64,000 nucleotides of DNA from Gaertneriomyces semiglobifer (Eukaryota; Chytridiomycota; Chytridiomycetes; Spizellomycetales; Spizellomycetaceae): the NCBI GenBank assembly GCA_025558075.1, contig JAHLKF010000011.1, positions 496,001-560,000 on the forward strand, read 5' to 3'. Positions 8,735 to 64,000 of this stretch are shown one piece after another (within the stretch, counting starts at the first letter, position 1; every line of letters begins with the position of its first letter). The position numbers were made by a program, and so were the translations under genes. A model generated the notes under the pieces. The model had not been told where the DNA came from. It made no database searches and worked only from the letters and a program-made list of their open reading frames with translations.

Positions 8735-9862
8735 TTACGGACTGGGACTGGTACCGCAGCACGTTGGACAAAGCCATGCACCTGAACGGATGTTTAGGGT
8801 ATATGCATGCTAATTAGGTTCGATAGAACTAACCTTCAGGGGGAGAAGAAAGCTTTACACAATCCAGATGAAACCACTCATGGGGGCAGTCTTCGTTGTC
8901 ACAAGCAATCATCTCGCCATAAGACGACTGCTGGCAAATACAGTAGACGTCATCAGAAGTGTCAGGAGTGGGAGCTCTCCAATACGAGGAAGGTGCTTGA
9001 GATGTTTTCTCTCTGGAAACCGCAAGTTAGACAGTACTAAACCCAAGCAATGACGGGCAATCTCACGTTCTTGCGCGCTTTCGATGAGCTACGCCTATCC
9101 GGCGCGACGAGGGAGGATTTGGGTTGACGGTCTGCGCGTCTAGTGAATAGTGATCGGAATATGGTATTGAGGTAGTAGCAGCAGGACGGGAAAATGAATC
9201 TCTCGGTGTCCGTAATGAAGCTATGGCGCAGGTGCGCTCGGGCGAGTCGTTTTCGATCAGACCGTCGGGTTCTATTCTCATCGTTAGATGGTTGAGGTAT
9301 TTGCTGAGGATATCGTGCGATTTTTGAGCCATCTTGACCTTTTCGTCGGCGAGCCGCTCGCAGTCAAGATATTTCTGGCGTATACATTCGTAAAGTTCTT
9401 GCTGCTCAGGAAAATCTCGGGACAAATCCATGGGAGTCGAATTTCTTGACGCAACCATTCTTTTTGAATTGTTGCCCGCCCGGGCGTGTTTGCTGGTAGC
9501 AACTGGAAGCCCACCCGGCCTTGATGTTAGCCGAGCCTGACGACGTGTGACGCTATCCATCTGTGAAAACAGAAGCTGGCGAATATCGCAAAGCTCCTGA
9601 CGGAGTGCTGTAAGAGTATAACAGATGAATGCGACAATGAGATAGAGTCAAACACTGCTGAAATCTGGGTAAGGTTACCGTAAAACTCTTCATCACGATC
9701 GCTTATCTCGCGAAGTATCGACGTTATGTCATACGGGACAGGATCCAAAGCTAATGGAAGGACGTTCCAGTTGAGCCACGATAGAATCCAGCGATCAAAC
9801 ACCACAATGCATGTTATGTACCCACAATCAATGAAGTCGTAAAGAAAATCGTCCAAATCCAT
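8735..9862 (-). CDS. ING-family histone reader with C-terminal PHD finger, 291 aa
   Basis: Five minus-strand exons, 9862-9826, 9750-9679, 9607-9067, 9012-8834 and 8781-8735, keep phase and end in TAA; introns are 75, 71, 54 and 52 nt. The N-terminus ([37 protein letters not shown], then [20 protein letters not shown]) matches the ING N-terminal helical domain that docks into histone acetyltransferase or deacetylase complexes such as NuA4. Residues about 240-285 are a complete C4HC3 PHD finger: CIC, CDNEDC, HLDC and CPTC in the canonical spacing, with the Tyr before the first Cys and the Trp of EWFH that form the H3K4me3 aromatic cage in ING proteins. The PHD finger is split over two short exons, so single open frames miss it. 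The first intron uses a GTGGGT donor, the weakest call in the model. Which yeast ING it corresponds to cannot be decided here. Confidence 0.9.
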
Positions 9863-56805: not shown

Positions 56806-59323
56806 AATGACGCTTCATTATGAAATTATGTGTCTGGACATGCCGTTAGATCCCCACAGACGCGACGCGTTCGGACGCGGTTGCTCATGATTGGATAATC
56901 CATTTTTATGAATGAGGCTGCGAGGCTGTCCACTTAAAGTATCGCTAAAGATCGAGAAGATAGAGACACGACAGGCGGCTGCAAACTGAGGTAAGGTCGT
57001 CATTCACTTTCTCTGCAAACGTGGGCCTGCTGGAAAAACTGCTGCGGGAAGGCCGCAGTGGCTGGGAGGCGGCTGAGCGGAGATCCTTGCGGGTCTCCAG
57101 TCTCCAGCTTGTCAGGTGGGAAGGCCGTCTGACGCTTCTTGGATGAGACCAGGTTCTCCGCGCTAATGCATGTGTAGACCCTTGCGAAATGGTTGCATTG
57201 GCTGGGGGGCAGCTAAGCGGAGGTCCTTCTGGGTCTCCAGTCTCCAGTTTGTCAGGTGGGAAGGCCGTCTGACGCCCCTCGGAATACATGCATCGGAGTT
57301 GATATGGCGCTGTGATTGTTTTAAAGAATGAACCGAACTAATGTCAAGCTCTTTCTTTCTTCCATTTCATGACTTTGTCGCAACAACGTATCTTGGAGCC
57401 AAAACGATCGGGTGGCGGGGAAAGGCATGGAAGCAGAATATACGACTGTTATGGAGTCAGATTCAATACATCAACTGTCGCTCATATGCCTAGTAACTCT
57501 TCACGCCGTGGCCGACGTTTAATATATACCTCTACGCAACGTATTGGGAAAGCCGTGCCGATTAGTCCCTGTCGCTTGATGTAGGCTGTAGTTCTTTTGG
57601 AGAAAGACAAACTTCGGACGTCGTGATGCATTGCCAGATCACAAAACGTTACAATGCTTTGCTTGCCCCGACTTCTATTGGCGGTCGTAAGCGCCACCTC
57701 AGCTTGGGAGAGCAGCGCTCCGTAACGGTTAACCGAGCCAGGTGGTGCTGTAGTCGGTGAATGTTGCATTGAGTGGCGCAAGGTCCGCTGGATCATGCGC
57801 GATCTGGCTGTCTGCCCTGGTTGCTGGAATGACACTTAGCGAGGTGCTATCTGGTCTGGAGGTTCCCTGGCTGTACATCATCCGTCACTGGAAGCTCATT
57901 AACGGCAGCAGTTTGTGTCATTACCGCCGATGAGAGCATGAGTGTCGTTTGTATAACTTGGCGGTTAGATTTTTCTCCCCTTATCAATGTCGTACTGCAC
58001 ATCAACTCATTCATGAGTGATCATGATATTAGGAGCATCTATGAGGGAGGGACATCGTCGAATTCTGTTAAGGTTTGCAGAGGGATGGAGTTCACAACCT
58101 GTGCTGTTTACTGAGGACTTTGGAAAGTCATTTGATGGAATTGTGTCACACAAGTAATTGTCCGGGTCAAAATATGTGTCGGGGCACCTTAAATATTGCT
58201 ACACGTGTCAATTATGGCGGAGTCGCTGTCCCGACAGCGTTGGAAATTGAGTACTCGATGGATTTTACACCACTAAACCAAAAGCACCTCCTTCTGACAT
58301 TCCTTTTCGAGTGCCTCAGCACATTTTGCAGGACATTCCATCGCACATTTTCACTGAACATGCTGATGGCAGTCGGTGGAGTCATTTCCTCCAGTACATT
58401 CTCTCATAGATTGCTATTTGACATTGTTTCCCGATGTTCTGGGGGGACATTCTGCTGATTGGCAACGGAATGTCTGTTATTAACCCCTCATATCACTGCA
58501 TACCACTGCATATTACTGCTCACACCACCATTGCTCATATTAATGGTTTGATAAAACATCAAAAAAGCATCAAAACCAACAGATTGAAAGGCCCTCCGTG
58601 GATGCATCTATTGTCTTGTTCCGCTGATGGTTGAGCTCCAGTGTGTCTTGCAGTTGAGACATATCGGCGTGGATATAGATCATGAGCATCGTGCTATATG
58701 TCAGTGATGCCAATGCGGCAATGCACCCCAGATCTGCGAACTCACCGCTCATCAGCGAGATCAGCCGCAACAGCAGCGTACGCGTAATCTTAAGCGTTTG
58801 AACCACTGATCAGCGCAACCTTCAGCAACATGAGTTGCGGATGTGACTGAGCTTGAGAAGCTTGCACGCAGAGGAATGTTGAGGACGCTGCATGTGCAGA
58901 GAAAGAGGACTCTGAAAAGAGACGCTGGGAAAAAGAGGCAAATACGTCTAAGTGCACGACCGCGTTGCCACCGAGGAGGCAAAACAGGCAAAAAGAATGT
59001 CAGCGTGCAGGAACGTGCCGTGGAATGTCATCCAACAACATGTCTCGGCATCGAATACGCTCCGATACATCCCATCTGATGTCCCTTTTGCCTCCTCGGC
59101 CGGAATGTGCTAATGAATGTCGGATTGTCAGCGGAATGTGCGTCGGCAACTGCTGTTCGATGTGCGGACGGATGCTCGCGCGAAATGTCTCATGGCGCCT
59201 TGTTTGTCGTGTTCACACGGACATATTGATAACTGAATGTCATATACGATGTCAACCTGGGTTGGGGGTGTACAGTTGACCACCAGAGCCGCATTGATCA
59301 AGGAAGCAATATGATGTCCAATA
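56806..59323. other. Subtelomeric gene-poor stretch
   Basis: About 2.5 kb with no supported gene. It contains the 75-bp duplication at 57061-57275. A region with frequent GAATGT/ACATTC words (about 58290-59340) runs on into the next gene. A plus frame at 58075-58458 (127 codons) has no recognisable content and is moderately CpG-poor around 58081-58140 and 58501-58560. Degenerate mobile DNA is possible but I cannot name an element. Confidence 0.45.
57061..57275. repeat. 75-bp imperfect direct duplication, period 140 bp
   Basis: Copies at 57061-57135 and 57201-57275 share TCTCCAGTCTCCAG, GTCAGGTGGGAAGGCCGTC and flanking sequence with only a few substitutions. The 65 bp between the copies is not repeated. 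No coding frame runs through both. Confidence 0.9.
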
Positions 59324-59806
59324 CTACGACCGTGACATTCCCTGCCATTGACCCCTGAGACGCCGTCCTGACTCCCAATCTTTGGCCGAAATGGGCACCC
59401 CTTTTCCACGCAAATTCCCTTCCTGAAAGAGACCTATCAGATAATCCTCCGCAGCTTCTTGCAATGTCTCAAACGCTTCAGTCTGCCAGCGAGCGTCCTT
59501 TAGTGTGGTCCCTTCCCTGGTCAGTACGTTCTGGCATATGTCACGGACCACACGTTGAAACGGCTTTTTCATGATAACCGACAACGTGCGCCTTGGGTAC
59601 CTATAAAACTGTCGCACCACCACAGAGGTTGGTCGATATCGGTGATGTGGATCAGGACGTTCTCCACGTGCTCTTGCTCGCAAGTATCCACCCAATCGTG
59701 GTAGCTTTTCGTCGGCCGCTTTCAACGCAAGCCGTATGCTCCGCCGTCCTCGCCGCCCACTTTCTAACAGTAGCGAATTCTCTCTGCGTTGGCATTGCCC
59801 TTCCAT
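59324..59806 (-). CDS. Divergent histone H3-fold protein (CENP-A-like or novel H3 variant), 160 aa
   Basis: A single-exon frame from the ATG at 59806. The C-terminal half follows the H3 fold: alpha-N entry HHRYRPTSVVVRQFYRYPRRT, alpha-1 KKPFQRVVRDICQNV, alpha-2 TLQEAAEDYLIGLFQE and alpha-3 SAKDWESGRRLRG. It departs from canonical H3 in three ways. The 50-residue N-terminus has no ARTKQTARKS-type tail and so none of the K4, K9 or K27 sites. Loop 1 is about seven residues longer and reads DARWQTEAF, recalling the longer loop 1 and Trp-Gln of CENP-A. Loop 2 lacks the segment around CAIHAK. A TTTTCAG acceptor-like site 20 bp upstream of the ATG suggests a spliced 5' leader. It could be the centromeric H3, a rapidly evolving H3 variant or a decaying copy; the helices look well preserved, which argues against decay. 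Confidence 0.85.
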   Translation of the reverse strand: MEGQCQRRENSLLLESGRRGRRSIRLALKAADEKLPRLGGYLRARARGERPDPHHRYRPTSVVVRQFYRYPRRTLSVIMKKPFQRVVRDICQNVLTREGTTLKDARWQTEAFETLQEAAEDYLIGLFQEGNLRGKGVPISAKDWESGRRLRGQWQGMSRS

Positions 59807-59922
59807 GCGCTTGATAAAGAGGAAACTGAAAATGAAAGAAAAATCGGTAAATACTCTGTGTACGTTTCATCCGTATAATCTGTGCGCCATAAATACATAT
59901 CTGCGTCTCCCTCCGTGAACAT

Positions 59923-60537
59923 TTAAACCGAATCGGCTGACGCATCTTCTTCGTAATCCTCCTCCGACTCATCTGTCTCATAATCCATGTCATACTCTTC
60001 CTCCGAATCATCGGTCTCCTCTTCATCCCCCTCTTGCAAAACAACCGCGTCTGCAAAAGCGCTGTCCTCTTCATCGTCTTCAGATATGTCTTCAATGGTA
60101 TCCGCCAGCGTAAGTTTCTGGGGGTCGTCCATGTCTGTCGTACCCACAGACGCCATTGCTTCCAAGACCAGCTGCTTGACGCGATCGATGTTGACACCCA
60201 ACTCAGAAAACATATTAGCGACGGAAAACGTGCATGGTGGGGAGCGGTCTCGCATTTGATGGGGCAGCCATATATGGATATGACGTGCTTCATGGCATGT
60301 GACGACAATACGGCTCAGATTTGGAAAGCCTTTAAGATCATAATCGTGCATCTGAAGACATCCTCCAAACAGGTCGGGATCGACAACTGCACCCCACACT
60401 TGTTCAGCACCGGTCACCAACGTCTTCTTCACATCAAGCTCGACCCATCCATTTTCGACACCACAACCTAACATTTGCTTCAACTCCTTTACCAGGCTGA
60501 TAACTTGGTCCGCAAAAGAAAAGAGGGAACCGTCCAT
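59923..60537 (-). CDS. Acidic-tailed protein of unknown family, 204 aa
   Basis: A single exon from the ATG at 60537. The first 130 residues look folded (FSFADQVISLVKELKQML, then GGCLQMHDYDLKGFPNLS and HEARHIHIWLPHQM). The last 70 residues are almost all Asp, Glu and Ser (for example EEETDDSEEEYDMDYET). Long acidic tails of this kind are common in histone chaperones and nucleolar proteins. It lies 116 bp upstream of, and on the same strand as, the H3-fold gene, so a partnership is tempting but is inference from position and charge only. No signal peptide or membrane segment. Confidence 0.65.
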   Translation of the reverse strand: MDGSLFSFADQVISLVKELKQMLGCGVENGWVELDVKKTLVTGAEQVWGAVVDPDLFGGCLQMHDYDLKGFPNLSRIVVTCHEARHIHIWLPHQMRDRSPPCTFSVANMFSELGVNIDRVKQLVLEAMASVGTTDMDDPQKLTLADTIEDISEDDEEDSAFADAVVLQEGDEEETDDSEEEYDMDYETDESEEDYEEDASADSV

Positions 60538-60859
60538 TGTGTTCAATGTTCAACCTCCTGGACCTCGTATCCTAATACACAGACCAATATGCCTCTTCTG
60601 CCTGTTCATTGATAGCAGGCCGATCACAGACCATTGCCTGTTAGCGCTCGGGCCACAGTTGGAAACCAAAGACGTGCTGGCCTATATCCACAATAAGACT
60701 CGGTTCGAGAGTCTCCAGATATATCTCGAGAGTGGCGCCTTCGGATCCCGTGTAGGAAGTGCGGTAGGGAAGGCACAACAACACCGGCAGTGGTTGTTCT
60801 GGCTCGCATATTACTTTGGGTGGTAGGAACTGGTGGAAGTCCTTCGTCGATGTAGTGCC

Positions 60860-61415
60860 ATGACAACGCCGCAGAAGACCACCGACGCGCGGTGCTTGGA
60901 TTTCCTGGTTATTTCGGCGTCCGAACTGTGCATGCTTTCCCCCGCCCGAGAGTTCAAGGCGTGGTACACTACCATGCTGGACACTCACAAAGACCTCATC
61001 GACTATTCCATACATTTCCTCGCCAGATGGCCTGAAATGCAGGCAGGCGTACTTTGCGATCCTGATACAAGCCGGTGCACACCTCATGCGCGACTTGTAA
61101 CATGTGAACAGCATGATGGATTATTGCGTGAGTTTCAGTCTGACGAGGCAATTCATCTACCTTTGGGAGACATGGTTTTACCGACAAGGAGGCTACGGCC
61201 CTCCCATCGATCGTCCCGCGCTGCTGGAAAAGGCTATCCTGAAAGGGTACCGTGACATCGCTACTTTCCTCGTCGGCCAAGGGCAAAGATTGATTCACCC
61301 CGTTCTTGTGAAGGATCCTCTGGAGTCGATGAGTTCCGAGTACATCGCCACTCTGATCGTGGCCGGCGTCGGGTTCCGAGGCTATGCGGGGTTGTTCGTA
61401 CGGTCCATCAACTAG
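60860..61415 (+). CDS. Tentative ankyrin-repeat-like protein, three exons, 144 aa
   Basis: Proposed exons are 60860-60963, 61043-61096 and 61139-61415, in phase, ending in TAG. The translation has ankyrin-like helical phrases (QAYFAILIQAGAHLMRD, LLEKAILKGYRDIATFLVGQG, SEYIATLIVAGVGFRGYAG). The second intron would be only 42 nt, and an upstream frame (60539-60826, with LQIYLESGAFGSRVG) may be an extra 5' exon that I could not join. Minus-strand frames across this stretch are antisense shadows. The existence of a gene is likely; its exact structure is not settled. Confidence 0.4.
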
Positions 61416-61887
61416 ACGAAAATGAACGATTCCCGTATCAAGCAAACCATACCCGAGTCACACCCGACTGTTTGCTCGGAATCCGAGATGAGAGCCCTTC
61501 ATCTAACGCCCGGATACCCAGATTCCATGCCAAAAACGCCCGAACCGCGCGCGTCATCGACATTCTGAACGCTATGGGGTCAGCAGATGCAGGATTTATC
61601 TGGGCAAGAGATAGAATGCGCAACAAGCTGCTCGCCTTCGAAAGGTCCTATCGCAGTCTCGCAGACACAGTTCCACTCCTCTGTACACGAAGTCCAGATG
61701 TGATATTCCAGTAAAATTTTCCATGTCCGGACCGTCCGGCAAATTTAATTAATTTGATTTTTCGATTAACTAATCAGGGGGCGGGGCGCCGTGCAGCCGT
61801 GCAGCAACCTTAAAAACCGTTTCCATTAGCACCAGTACTTGCAGTATCATCATCACTCACCGCTTATTATTTCTTTTTTGACGCAAG
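61416..61887. other. Intergenic, no supported gene
   Basis: In these 472 bp an 80-codon plus frame (61472-61714) could be a remnant of the upstream gene (VIDILNAMGSADAGFIW) but has no clear start. The AT-rich patch at 61740-61775 may belong to the promoter of the next gene. Confidence 0.4.
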
Positions 61888-63678
61888 ATGGCGTATGTTA
61901 ACTTTTCTGCGTTTCGTTGTCCAAGTGTGGTATCTCTTTAATATTTCTAACATACAGTTTTGTTGCTTGGAGCGATGAGGAAGGGTTGACCGCTGCAGAG
62001 AATGACGACGATCCCGATCATTCCGTGCCTCTAAGGCTTCGTTCCTACGTTGAGAAACGTATGAAAGACAATACATTGGATCCAGTCGGGTACGCCAAGT
62101 ACCTAAACCCCGACCTCACTGACAAGGACTCGGCCTTCCTGAGCCTCCAAGCTGCGGTCGAGTGGGTGAAATCACGGAGCAGCCGACTAACCTCCGGCGC
62201 GAAGAAGCATGCCACTGAGGCATCCAAACGCCTGGCAAAGTATCCTGTAAGCTGTGAATGCCGTGTTCACATTGTAATCCTTGTCATTGCATATTTGACA
62301 GTGCTGTTTAGTGGGATGATCCGATGGGGCCTTGGGCAACCTTCTGGGAAAAGGTCGCAAATAAGCAGCATGCTGTAGGTAGCCTCTTCATACTGTGGGT
62401 AGTGACCTCTTTCTGATCTTGGTCCCCCGTCAGAAACTCCAACGCCTGAAACGTAACCTGCAAGGGGAGATCGAGTTAACCTCAAGGTCGGGACTAGCCC
62501 TGGAAAAGACCTTGAGGAAAGTGAACAAAGCCAAGGCCAAAAGGAAGAGAGGTACCAGCCCGGCCCAGGCTGTTGCAGACGAGGACGAGGAAGTGACGAC
62601 TCCGACAAAGAAGCGCACGTCGGCATTGACGCCGTTCCTACATACTCCCATGAAGCCGCAGTTGAAGACGAGTACCAAGTTCGAGACTGCCATCGAGATC
62701 GTCTTTCTCTTTCGCGCCTCGCGACATGATCCTTTGGAGGCGCAGCTTTCTTATGTCGAGCAGATGAACAACATCTACGATGTGTCGTGCGTACCAAGTT
62801 CGGTACAAGAGATGATGACAAAGCTCTCTGCTGAGCCCATTGCCAGTGCACCAGGTGTACTTTTGTCCTCTGATAATCAGGAGGACAAGCATTTGCATGT
62901 CGCAAGAAGTGTGATTTTTGACTTCTGGGCGATGACACGCCACATGAGCGGCAACGTTCTGGTTCCGGGGCGGGAGCGAAAACACCTCATTGAGCAGGTA
63001 TCACCTCTTTTCAAACATATGGAGCACACCTTCCATAACATTGCCTTCGACTGGATTGAACGACCGGCCAACAGCACTAAGTCCTTGCGGCAGATGTGCG
63101 AAGGCAAACGTCAAACATTTGCAGTTGATGTTCTTGGGATCGCGGCGGCAGATAGCTCCGAGATCACCTACGTTGAACACAGTGGGTTAGATACGGATAA
63201 AGCTGAGACGATGAAGCACGCAAACGATGATATTTTGAAACTCATCAATGAGGCCATCGACGGGGCCAAGTTCCGTCTCTGCAGGTATTTGGATGCTCTG
63301 GCGGAACAGGCGAGCGATGTGAAGTCATTTGCGCTGCAGATAATTGGTAGGTTGAATGGTAATGCTAAAAGTGCCAATTCGTAATTTGATCAAACCCTGT
63401 CTGTCTTTCTAGGGCAAAGAATGACGCTGTTTTCGCTGTCGTTGGTGGGAGAAAATAAGTACCTTGCCATGGAGTGCAAGTCGGCCTGCTTGCCTAGTAG
63501 TTGGGCGGAGGCGGACCTTTTTGAAGAAGTCTTCGACCTTGCCTTCTTCCTGCTGGAGCAAGTGGATGAGCAACAGCAAATGATGGCAAAGCTGCGAAGC
63601 CAGCTACGCAGAGGGAAGCAATCCGCAGCTGGACCAACCGTGCGAGAATGGTTGCAGTTATCCCCTTCTATTATATGA
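61888..63678 (+). CDS. Second subtelomeric member of the nuclease-like fungal family, 511 aa
   Basis: Five exons, 61888-61892, 61958-62246, 62312-62374, 62434-63346 and 63413-63678, are in phase. The first exon has only five coding bases (ATG GC) before a GTATGT donor. A 21-codon third exon (WDDPMGPWATFWEKVANKQHA) is flanked by 65- and 59-nt introns. Residues about 345-395 repeat the motif order of the 55125-56805 protein: a VDVLG Asp (near 350), YVEHSG Glu (near 366), then KHANDDILKLINEA. A C-terminal helix (PSSWAEADLFEEVFDLAFFLLEQV region) corresponds to the end of the other copy. A basic linker (NKAKAKRKRG) may be a nuclear signal. It is the last gene before the telomere, which starts 246 bp beyond its stop. 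The paralogy is my reading of motif order, not an alignment score. Confidence 0.82.
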
Positions 63679-63923: not shown

Positions 63924-64000
63924 TTCGGGTTAGGGTTTGGGTCAGGGTTTGGGTCAGGGTTTGGGTCAGGGTTTGGGTCAGGGTCAGGGTTAGGGTTAGG
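63924..64000 (+). repeat. Telomere repeat array with ordered variants
   Basis: Thirteen hexamer units run to the end of the window: TTCGGG, TTAGGG, then four alternating pairs of TTTGGG and TCAGGG, one more TCAGGG, TTAGGG and a partial TTAGG. The G-rich strand runs towards the window end, as expected at a right chromosome end. The variant units are the proximal zone where the array grades into subtelomere; pure TTAGGG begins at the last two units. Confidence 0.97.

Follow-up and report, generated by a model that had tools for sequence, protein, structure and literature searches.

We identified an H3-like gene close to a telomere of the chytrid Gaertneriomyces semiglobifer (Spizellomycetales). 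Our tentative preference is to regard it as a paralog within the H3/CENP-A family that is specific to this lineage and evolves fast, and the product of which would be dimer-prone or heterotypic if it is expressed. The gene lies in a stretch of 64,000 nucleotides (C11:496001-560000; referred to here as the window) from a 20.86 Mb genome assembled in 66 contigs. It is an open reading frame (ORF) of 160 codons plus a stop on the minus strand (59324..59806), and the frame has no stops or frameshifts of the kind that would mark a pseudogene. The predicted protein scored 54 bits for the Pfam Histone family (PF00125; cut-off 26.4), and it matched solved H3 chains with E values down to 1e-19. These two scores refute a chance ORF unrelated to H3, to which we give virtually no credence. 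The histone-fold core was placed by sequence comparison at residues 55-152 (59351..59644, minus strand), and by sequence its fold is of the H3 family; a first-pass annotation of this DNA had read its three helices as those of H3. That annotation also put the gene beside a telomere. It starts 4121 bases from a telomere-type array on the plus strand (63927..64000). The array runs on to the contig end at C11:560212, which is 212 bases past the window and 285 past the array start, and the contig ends in TTAGGG-type repeats.

The canonical H3 of this genome, encoded beside H4 (C33:109 kb), is identical to the window gene at 47 of 94 aligned core residues. The corresponding count for this genome's CENP-A (C2:140 kb and C6:365 kb) is 40 of 103. 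Q68, R72, Q76, Y99, and G102 are common to the window gene and canonical H3, whereas CENP-A differs. However, the window gene departs from H3 in having another tail that is without K4, K9, and K27, seven more residues in loop 1, no residues 110-112, and the replacements H113 to Arg, R116G, T118P, L126S, and A127G. It shares with CENP-A the length of loop 1, a tryptophan at position 84, and a C-terminal tryptophan with one glycine, but it is without the CENP-A blocks FARLVKE and VHLFEDANLCAIHAKRVT, and the end of its alpha-2 is shortened. Nine sites distinguish H3 from 20 fungal CENP-A rows; the window gene carries the CENP-A letter at two of them, the H3 letter at two, and neither at five. Compared by sequence, the core is no less H3-like than CENP-A-like.

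Canonical H3 has a loop 1 of standard length and an intact alpha-2 end, and the window gene has neither. Relative to H3, its loop 1 contains a seven-residue insertion (REGTTLK; 59498..59518, minus strand), followed after two residues by R-W-Q. This agrees with the annotated extension of about seven residues with Trp-Gln, and the total loop length equals that in this genome's CENP-A. A lengthened loop 1 with a tryptophan before alpha-2 is a CENP-A/cenH3 trait, and the tryptophan at H3 position 84 is present in 20 of 20 fungal CENP-A rows. Loop 2 had been described as shortened. Three residues are indeed lost, but they align with H3 110-112, at the end of alpha-2 and in the H3-H3' interface (junction L132-R133; 59408..59413, minus strand). 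The lost triplet is C110-A111-I112 in human H3 and A110-A111-I112 in this genome's H3. Both length changes in the core are in frame. We considered an intron concealed at the deletion, but the sequence, judged by eye, leaves no space for one. The C-terminal RGQWQGMSRS (59327..59356, minus strand) is nearer to CENP-A RGPWGGLG than to H3 RGERS. In comparison with RGPWGGLG, the tryptophan and one glycine are kept, the leucine is a methionine, and the end is longer. R69, R72, R83, Q85, and F104 are kept, and the basic DNA-face residues R52 and R63 are not. Only 4 of 14 H3 residues are retained in alphaN. E105, R116, and T118, which we take to be SIN positions of H3, are all altered. The excerpts returned by a literature search gave no confirmation of that status, and neither did a list of alanine mutants (PMC7308085).

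An AlphaFold model of the protein without Met1 was of low confidence (mean pLDDT 60), and in it alpha-2 stops at the counterpart of H3 L109. As a control, the CENP-A of Gaertneriomyces sp. JEL0708 was modeled from the same 25 alignment rows in a changed order. This model was also of low confidence (mean pLDDT 61), and its alpha-2 reaches the match of A114. Because predicted alpha-2 ends at L109 rather than at A114 as in the control, the missing residues seem to shorten this helix rather than loop 2. The models will not bear a reading beyond this, and the best Foldseek match, to H3, was weak (E 0.022).

The first-pass annotation called the protein tail-less. The canonical tail start is gone, but the predicted ORF has a different, arginine-rich tail. 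From the predicted start codon, 54 residues (12 Arg and 2 Lys) precede HRYRP (residues 1-54; 59645..59806, minus strand). The ARTKQTARKS start with K4 and K9 is not present, and K27 is also missing, in line with the annotation, so the tail is not that of canonical H3. Residues 25-40 (RLALKAADEKLPRLGG; 59687..59734, minus strand) are similar to H3 19-34 and may be a remnant of the H3 tail, with K23 matched and R26-K27 replaced by D-E; 139 of 20,000 shuffles scored equally well. Likeness to CENP-A tails is weaker, with 618 and 507 of 5000 shuffles as good.

When the whole genome was searched, Pfam Histone matched 15 times: eight matches are of H3 type and fall at seven loci, three are H2A, two are H2B, and two others lie on C1 and C15. 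The H3-type loci are the window gene, canonical H3 (two exons giving two matches), the two typical CENP-A genes on C2 and C6 (CENP-A1 and CENP-A2), two near-identical, transposon-linked CENP-A-like H3 genes (C6:703 kb and C21:259 kb), and an H3-like remnant with in-frame stops (C9:357 kb; L021). The cores of CENP-A1 and CENP-A2 are identical at 107 of 107 residues, and their tails differ. Their degenerate codons are the same at 45 of 102 positions, with 31.7 expected at random. By these comparisons the duplication is old, and both of its copies have been conserved. The C-terminal part of CENP-C was matched on C12 by two separate pieces, which score 32.9 and 30.3 bits, just over the cut-off of 29; four prokaryote control genomes also gave signal in this search, none of it above the cut-off. 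The annotation had suggested that the window gene might be the centromeric H3, oddly placed; it had also said that a more typical CENP-A elsewhere, combined with lack of expression or relaxed selection here, would point to a decaying copy. CENP-A1, CENP-A2, and the CENP-C match all lie elsewhere, which is the first half of that combination. Therefore, the centromeric role does not require the window gene, and the suggestion that it is the centromeric H3 is disfavored.

The transposon-linked H3 gene on C21 is carried by a complete-looking hAT element of 3242 bases (C21:258993-262234; L057:1494-4735). Its terminal inverted repeats match at 18 of 18 positions, and an 8-base target duplication (ATAAGAGA) is found on both sides. 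The transposase lies in a stop-to-stop frame of 651 codons. Its hAT dimerization domain scores 81.5 bits (cut-off 21.4), whereas an RNase-H-like match, at 25.4 bits, falls below its cut-off of 27. The H3 gene, which has one inferred intron with fungal-type signals, is tail to tail with the transposase: its stop ends at L057:2528, and the transposase stop runs from 2565. The copy on C6 (C6:702635-704283; L058) is cut at one end, is 98% identical over 1650 bases, and is flanked by a direct repeat of about 45 bases. In this copy the H3 intron donor is changed, together with one letter near the branch site. Exon 2 of the two H3 copies differs at 4 of 97 residues, by 5 bases, so there is no sign of present constraint on them. 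The window gene and the transposon H3 are not closely related (34 of 92 residues identical).

We also looked for a transposon around the window gene and rejected the idea that it lies inside one, having found no convincing ends; the dispersed repeats nearby stop at 59272, short of the gene. Ten inverted-repeat pairs were listed between 57000 and 62300, three of which enclose the gene (71, 75, and 81% complementary). At eight of the ten, including those three, no target duplication was found beyond identical flanks of at most 4 bases. No second genomic copy of 59300-61900 was found. Even so, a degraded transposon may surround the gene. The repeats themselves (58265-59272) are a mosaic with AATGTC/GACATT words (10 in 58250-59323), pieces of which recur, some reordered, on at least nine other contigs among the matches listed. 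Just upstream of the gene and on the same strand is an ORF of 207 codons with a strongly acidic C terminus (59923-60546, minus strand). It has a coding-like codon score and no Pfam match, and no paralog of it was found in the genome. An in-frame fusion of this ORF with the H3-like gene via a 170-base intron is possible, but it carries no evidential weight because five of the eight listed donor-like sites fit the phase. By the telomere is a 329-codon ORF (62395-63384, plus strand) with no Pfam match above the cut-off; related DNA occurs at C6:251 kb (78%) and, close to the end of C6, at 1063 kb (67%). In keeping with the annotation's mention of ING in the window, there is a weak match to the ING-family N-terminal domain (9273-9407, minus strand; 26.2 bits, cut-off 23.9), and two better ING matches are on other contigs. 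The window also contains an axonemal dynein heavy-chain gene, which fits a zoosporic fungus.

A search of 5.8 billion proteins returned no ortholog, only the window gene's own fragment and a protein designated P0002; because it requires shared five-residue words and predicted proteins, an unannotated or very divergent ortholog would escape it. The set includes the CENP-A of the congener Gaertneriomyces sp. JEL0708. A search of proteins with the core only gave four candidates, and the sole return was again the gene's own fragment. A scan of viral contigs found eight stretches that matched the pattern, none of which was confirmed as a relative, and a viral origin was rejected on that result. No chytrid histone variants were described in the titles or displayed abstract openings of the literature matches listed. 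P0002, which comes from short contigs (source tag lgn), is a lone record of an H3-like protein of 147 residues, and it was the only other protein found at E ≤ 1e-5 (6.7e-11).

The annotation had proposed a phylogeny with H3 and CENP-A. In a tree of 29 rows, 18 of them drawn from 120 listed proteins, the window gene has an end branch of 3.41 changes per column, and neither H3 (p 0.341) nor CENP-A (p 0.283) was rejected as the group that it joins. The same held with all rows on the 97 columns present in H3 (p 0.338 and 0.288). The 97-column tree put the gene on the CENP-A side when P0002 was left out (52/86) and again when the transposon H3s were also left out (97/87); however, the latter branch mostly reflects clustering of the H3 rows, which are few and near-identical, and joining to H3 was still not rejected (p 0.103). 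This reduced tree might suggest a second, specialized centromeric H3 of the CENP-A class alongside CENP-A1 and CENP-A2. The CENP-A length of loop 1 and the tryptophan at position 84 point the same way, as does the resemblance of the C-terminal RGQWQGM to RGPWGGLG, in the region that CENP-C contacts (PMC7475651). We consider it improbable nonetheless, since only two of the nine diagnostic sites carry the CENP-A letter, two conserved CENP-A genes are already in the genome, and the trees leave H3 unrejected. A different possibility is that the window gene and P0002 belong to a separate, rarely sampled class of noncentromeric H3 variants with a long loop 1. They share the length of that loop, its R-W, and the block KKPFQRVVRDI. 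At 15 sites where both depart from every H3 and CENP-A row, they have the same letter at 4, and they agree at 6 of 22 sites that are off both consensuses, as did 27 of 20,000 shuffles. They also join in the 29-row tree, without support (69/37). However, P0002 has a canonical MARTKQTARKS start, a full alpha-2 end (NLAAIHA), and no W-containing, CENP-A-like C terminus. Both are long branches, which attract each other, and a single relative does not make a class. We therefore think such a class unlikely. The annotated suggestion of a new H3 class with its own chromatin survives weakly: because no ortholog was found and P0002 is a lone record, the window gene is an orphan H3 variant and not a demonstrated class.

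Decay is the other explanation to be weighed. We simulated neutral substitution from H3 and from CENP-A, with 3000 runs per parent, each run to the observed identity. With H3 as the parent, the aligned codons stayed stop-free in 377 of 3000 runs, and the observed conservativeness of the replacements was reached in 63; with CENP-A as the parent, the counts were 95 and 3. By these counts, decay ever since duplication is unlikely, more clearly with a CENP-A parent than with an H3 parent. Decay may nevertheless have begun recently. The H3 frame was also the most coding-like of the six (0.060 per codon, compared with 0.063 for CENP-A1 in its own frame), as scored with a small table of codon use drawn from 13 long open stretches in the window. 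At silent sites, 14 of 47 codons were the same as in H3, with 15.2 expected. This saturation would fit a long separation, but alone it is no proof of selection on the window copy because the H3 lineage also adds silent changes. Relaxed selection had been named as a sign of a decaying copy, and it is not what the open frame and the replacements, more conservative than in the neutral simulations, point to. The gene has probably been kept by selection for much of its history. An old H3/CENP-A-family copy that is dispensable, silent, and now decaying under relaxed selection in a subtelomere is nonetheless a possibility that we take seriously while doubting it. In that case, early damage would account for the lost alpha-2 end and for the changes in alphaN. 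Consistent with this are the negative searches for a second copy and for an ortholog, the long end branch, the few H3 residues left in alphaN, the dispersed repeats 3' of the gene, and the presence of another H3-like remnant, with stops, in the genome. The 160 stop-free codons, the conservative replacements, and the coding-like codon use argue against it.

If the gene is used, we consider with moderate confidence that a dimer-prone or heterotypic variant without the main tail marks is the likeliest mechanism. The predicted product would still pair with H4, because its alpha-1, its loop 1, and the early part of its alpha-2 can be recognized, and it would contact DNA via the basic residues retained on its DNA face. 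H3-H3' contacts would be made poorly, and tetramerization would probably be poor, because residues 110-112 are missing and positions 113, 116, 126, and 127 are changed. In H3, residues 110, 126, and 130 are part of the H3-H3' four-helix bundle, and the laboratory mutant C110E/L126A/I130A makes H3-H4 exclusively dimeric (PMC7494816). The same interface is hit here, with 110 missing and L126 replaced by serine, but position 130 is leucine, and we infer the effect from sequence. This genome's own H3 has alanine at 110 and leucine at 130. Leu130 is therefore normal for this organism, which leaves the deletion and L126S as the only changes among these three positions. We also compared rates between structural parts. 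Identity to H3 is 12 of 26 residues from the alpha-2 end to alpha-3 and 22 of 39 in alpha-1 and the first part of alpha-2, and this contrast was set aside as not significant (Fisher p 0.46). Any argument that the H3-H3' surface in particular was lost is therefore based on the deletion and the single residues. A stricter version is a natural dimer-only H3, able to pair with H4 and to bind DNA yet unable to form the H3-H3' four-helix bundle. It would cap, poison, or replace half-nucleosomes while carrying no main H3 tail marks. We weight it lower, as a long shot, because the organism's own H3 already has Leu130 and Ala110.

A dimer-prone or heterotypic paralog, if expressed, would lead to nucleosomes that are unstable and lack the main H3 tail marks, or it would compete for H4 and chaperones. 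One chytrid genome holds seven H3-type loci: H3, two old CENP-A genes, two transposon-linked genes, an orphan, and a remnant. If expressed, the orphan would be a natural test of which losses in H3 (tail marks, alpha-2 end, and dyad residues) are tolerated while a gene is kept, and it would ask whether H3-H4 dimers serve cells on their own.
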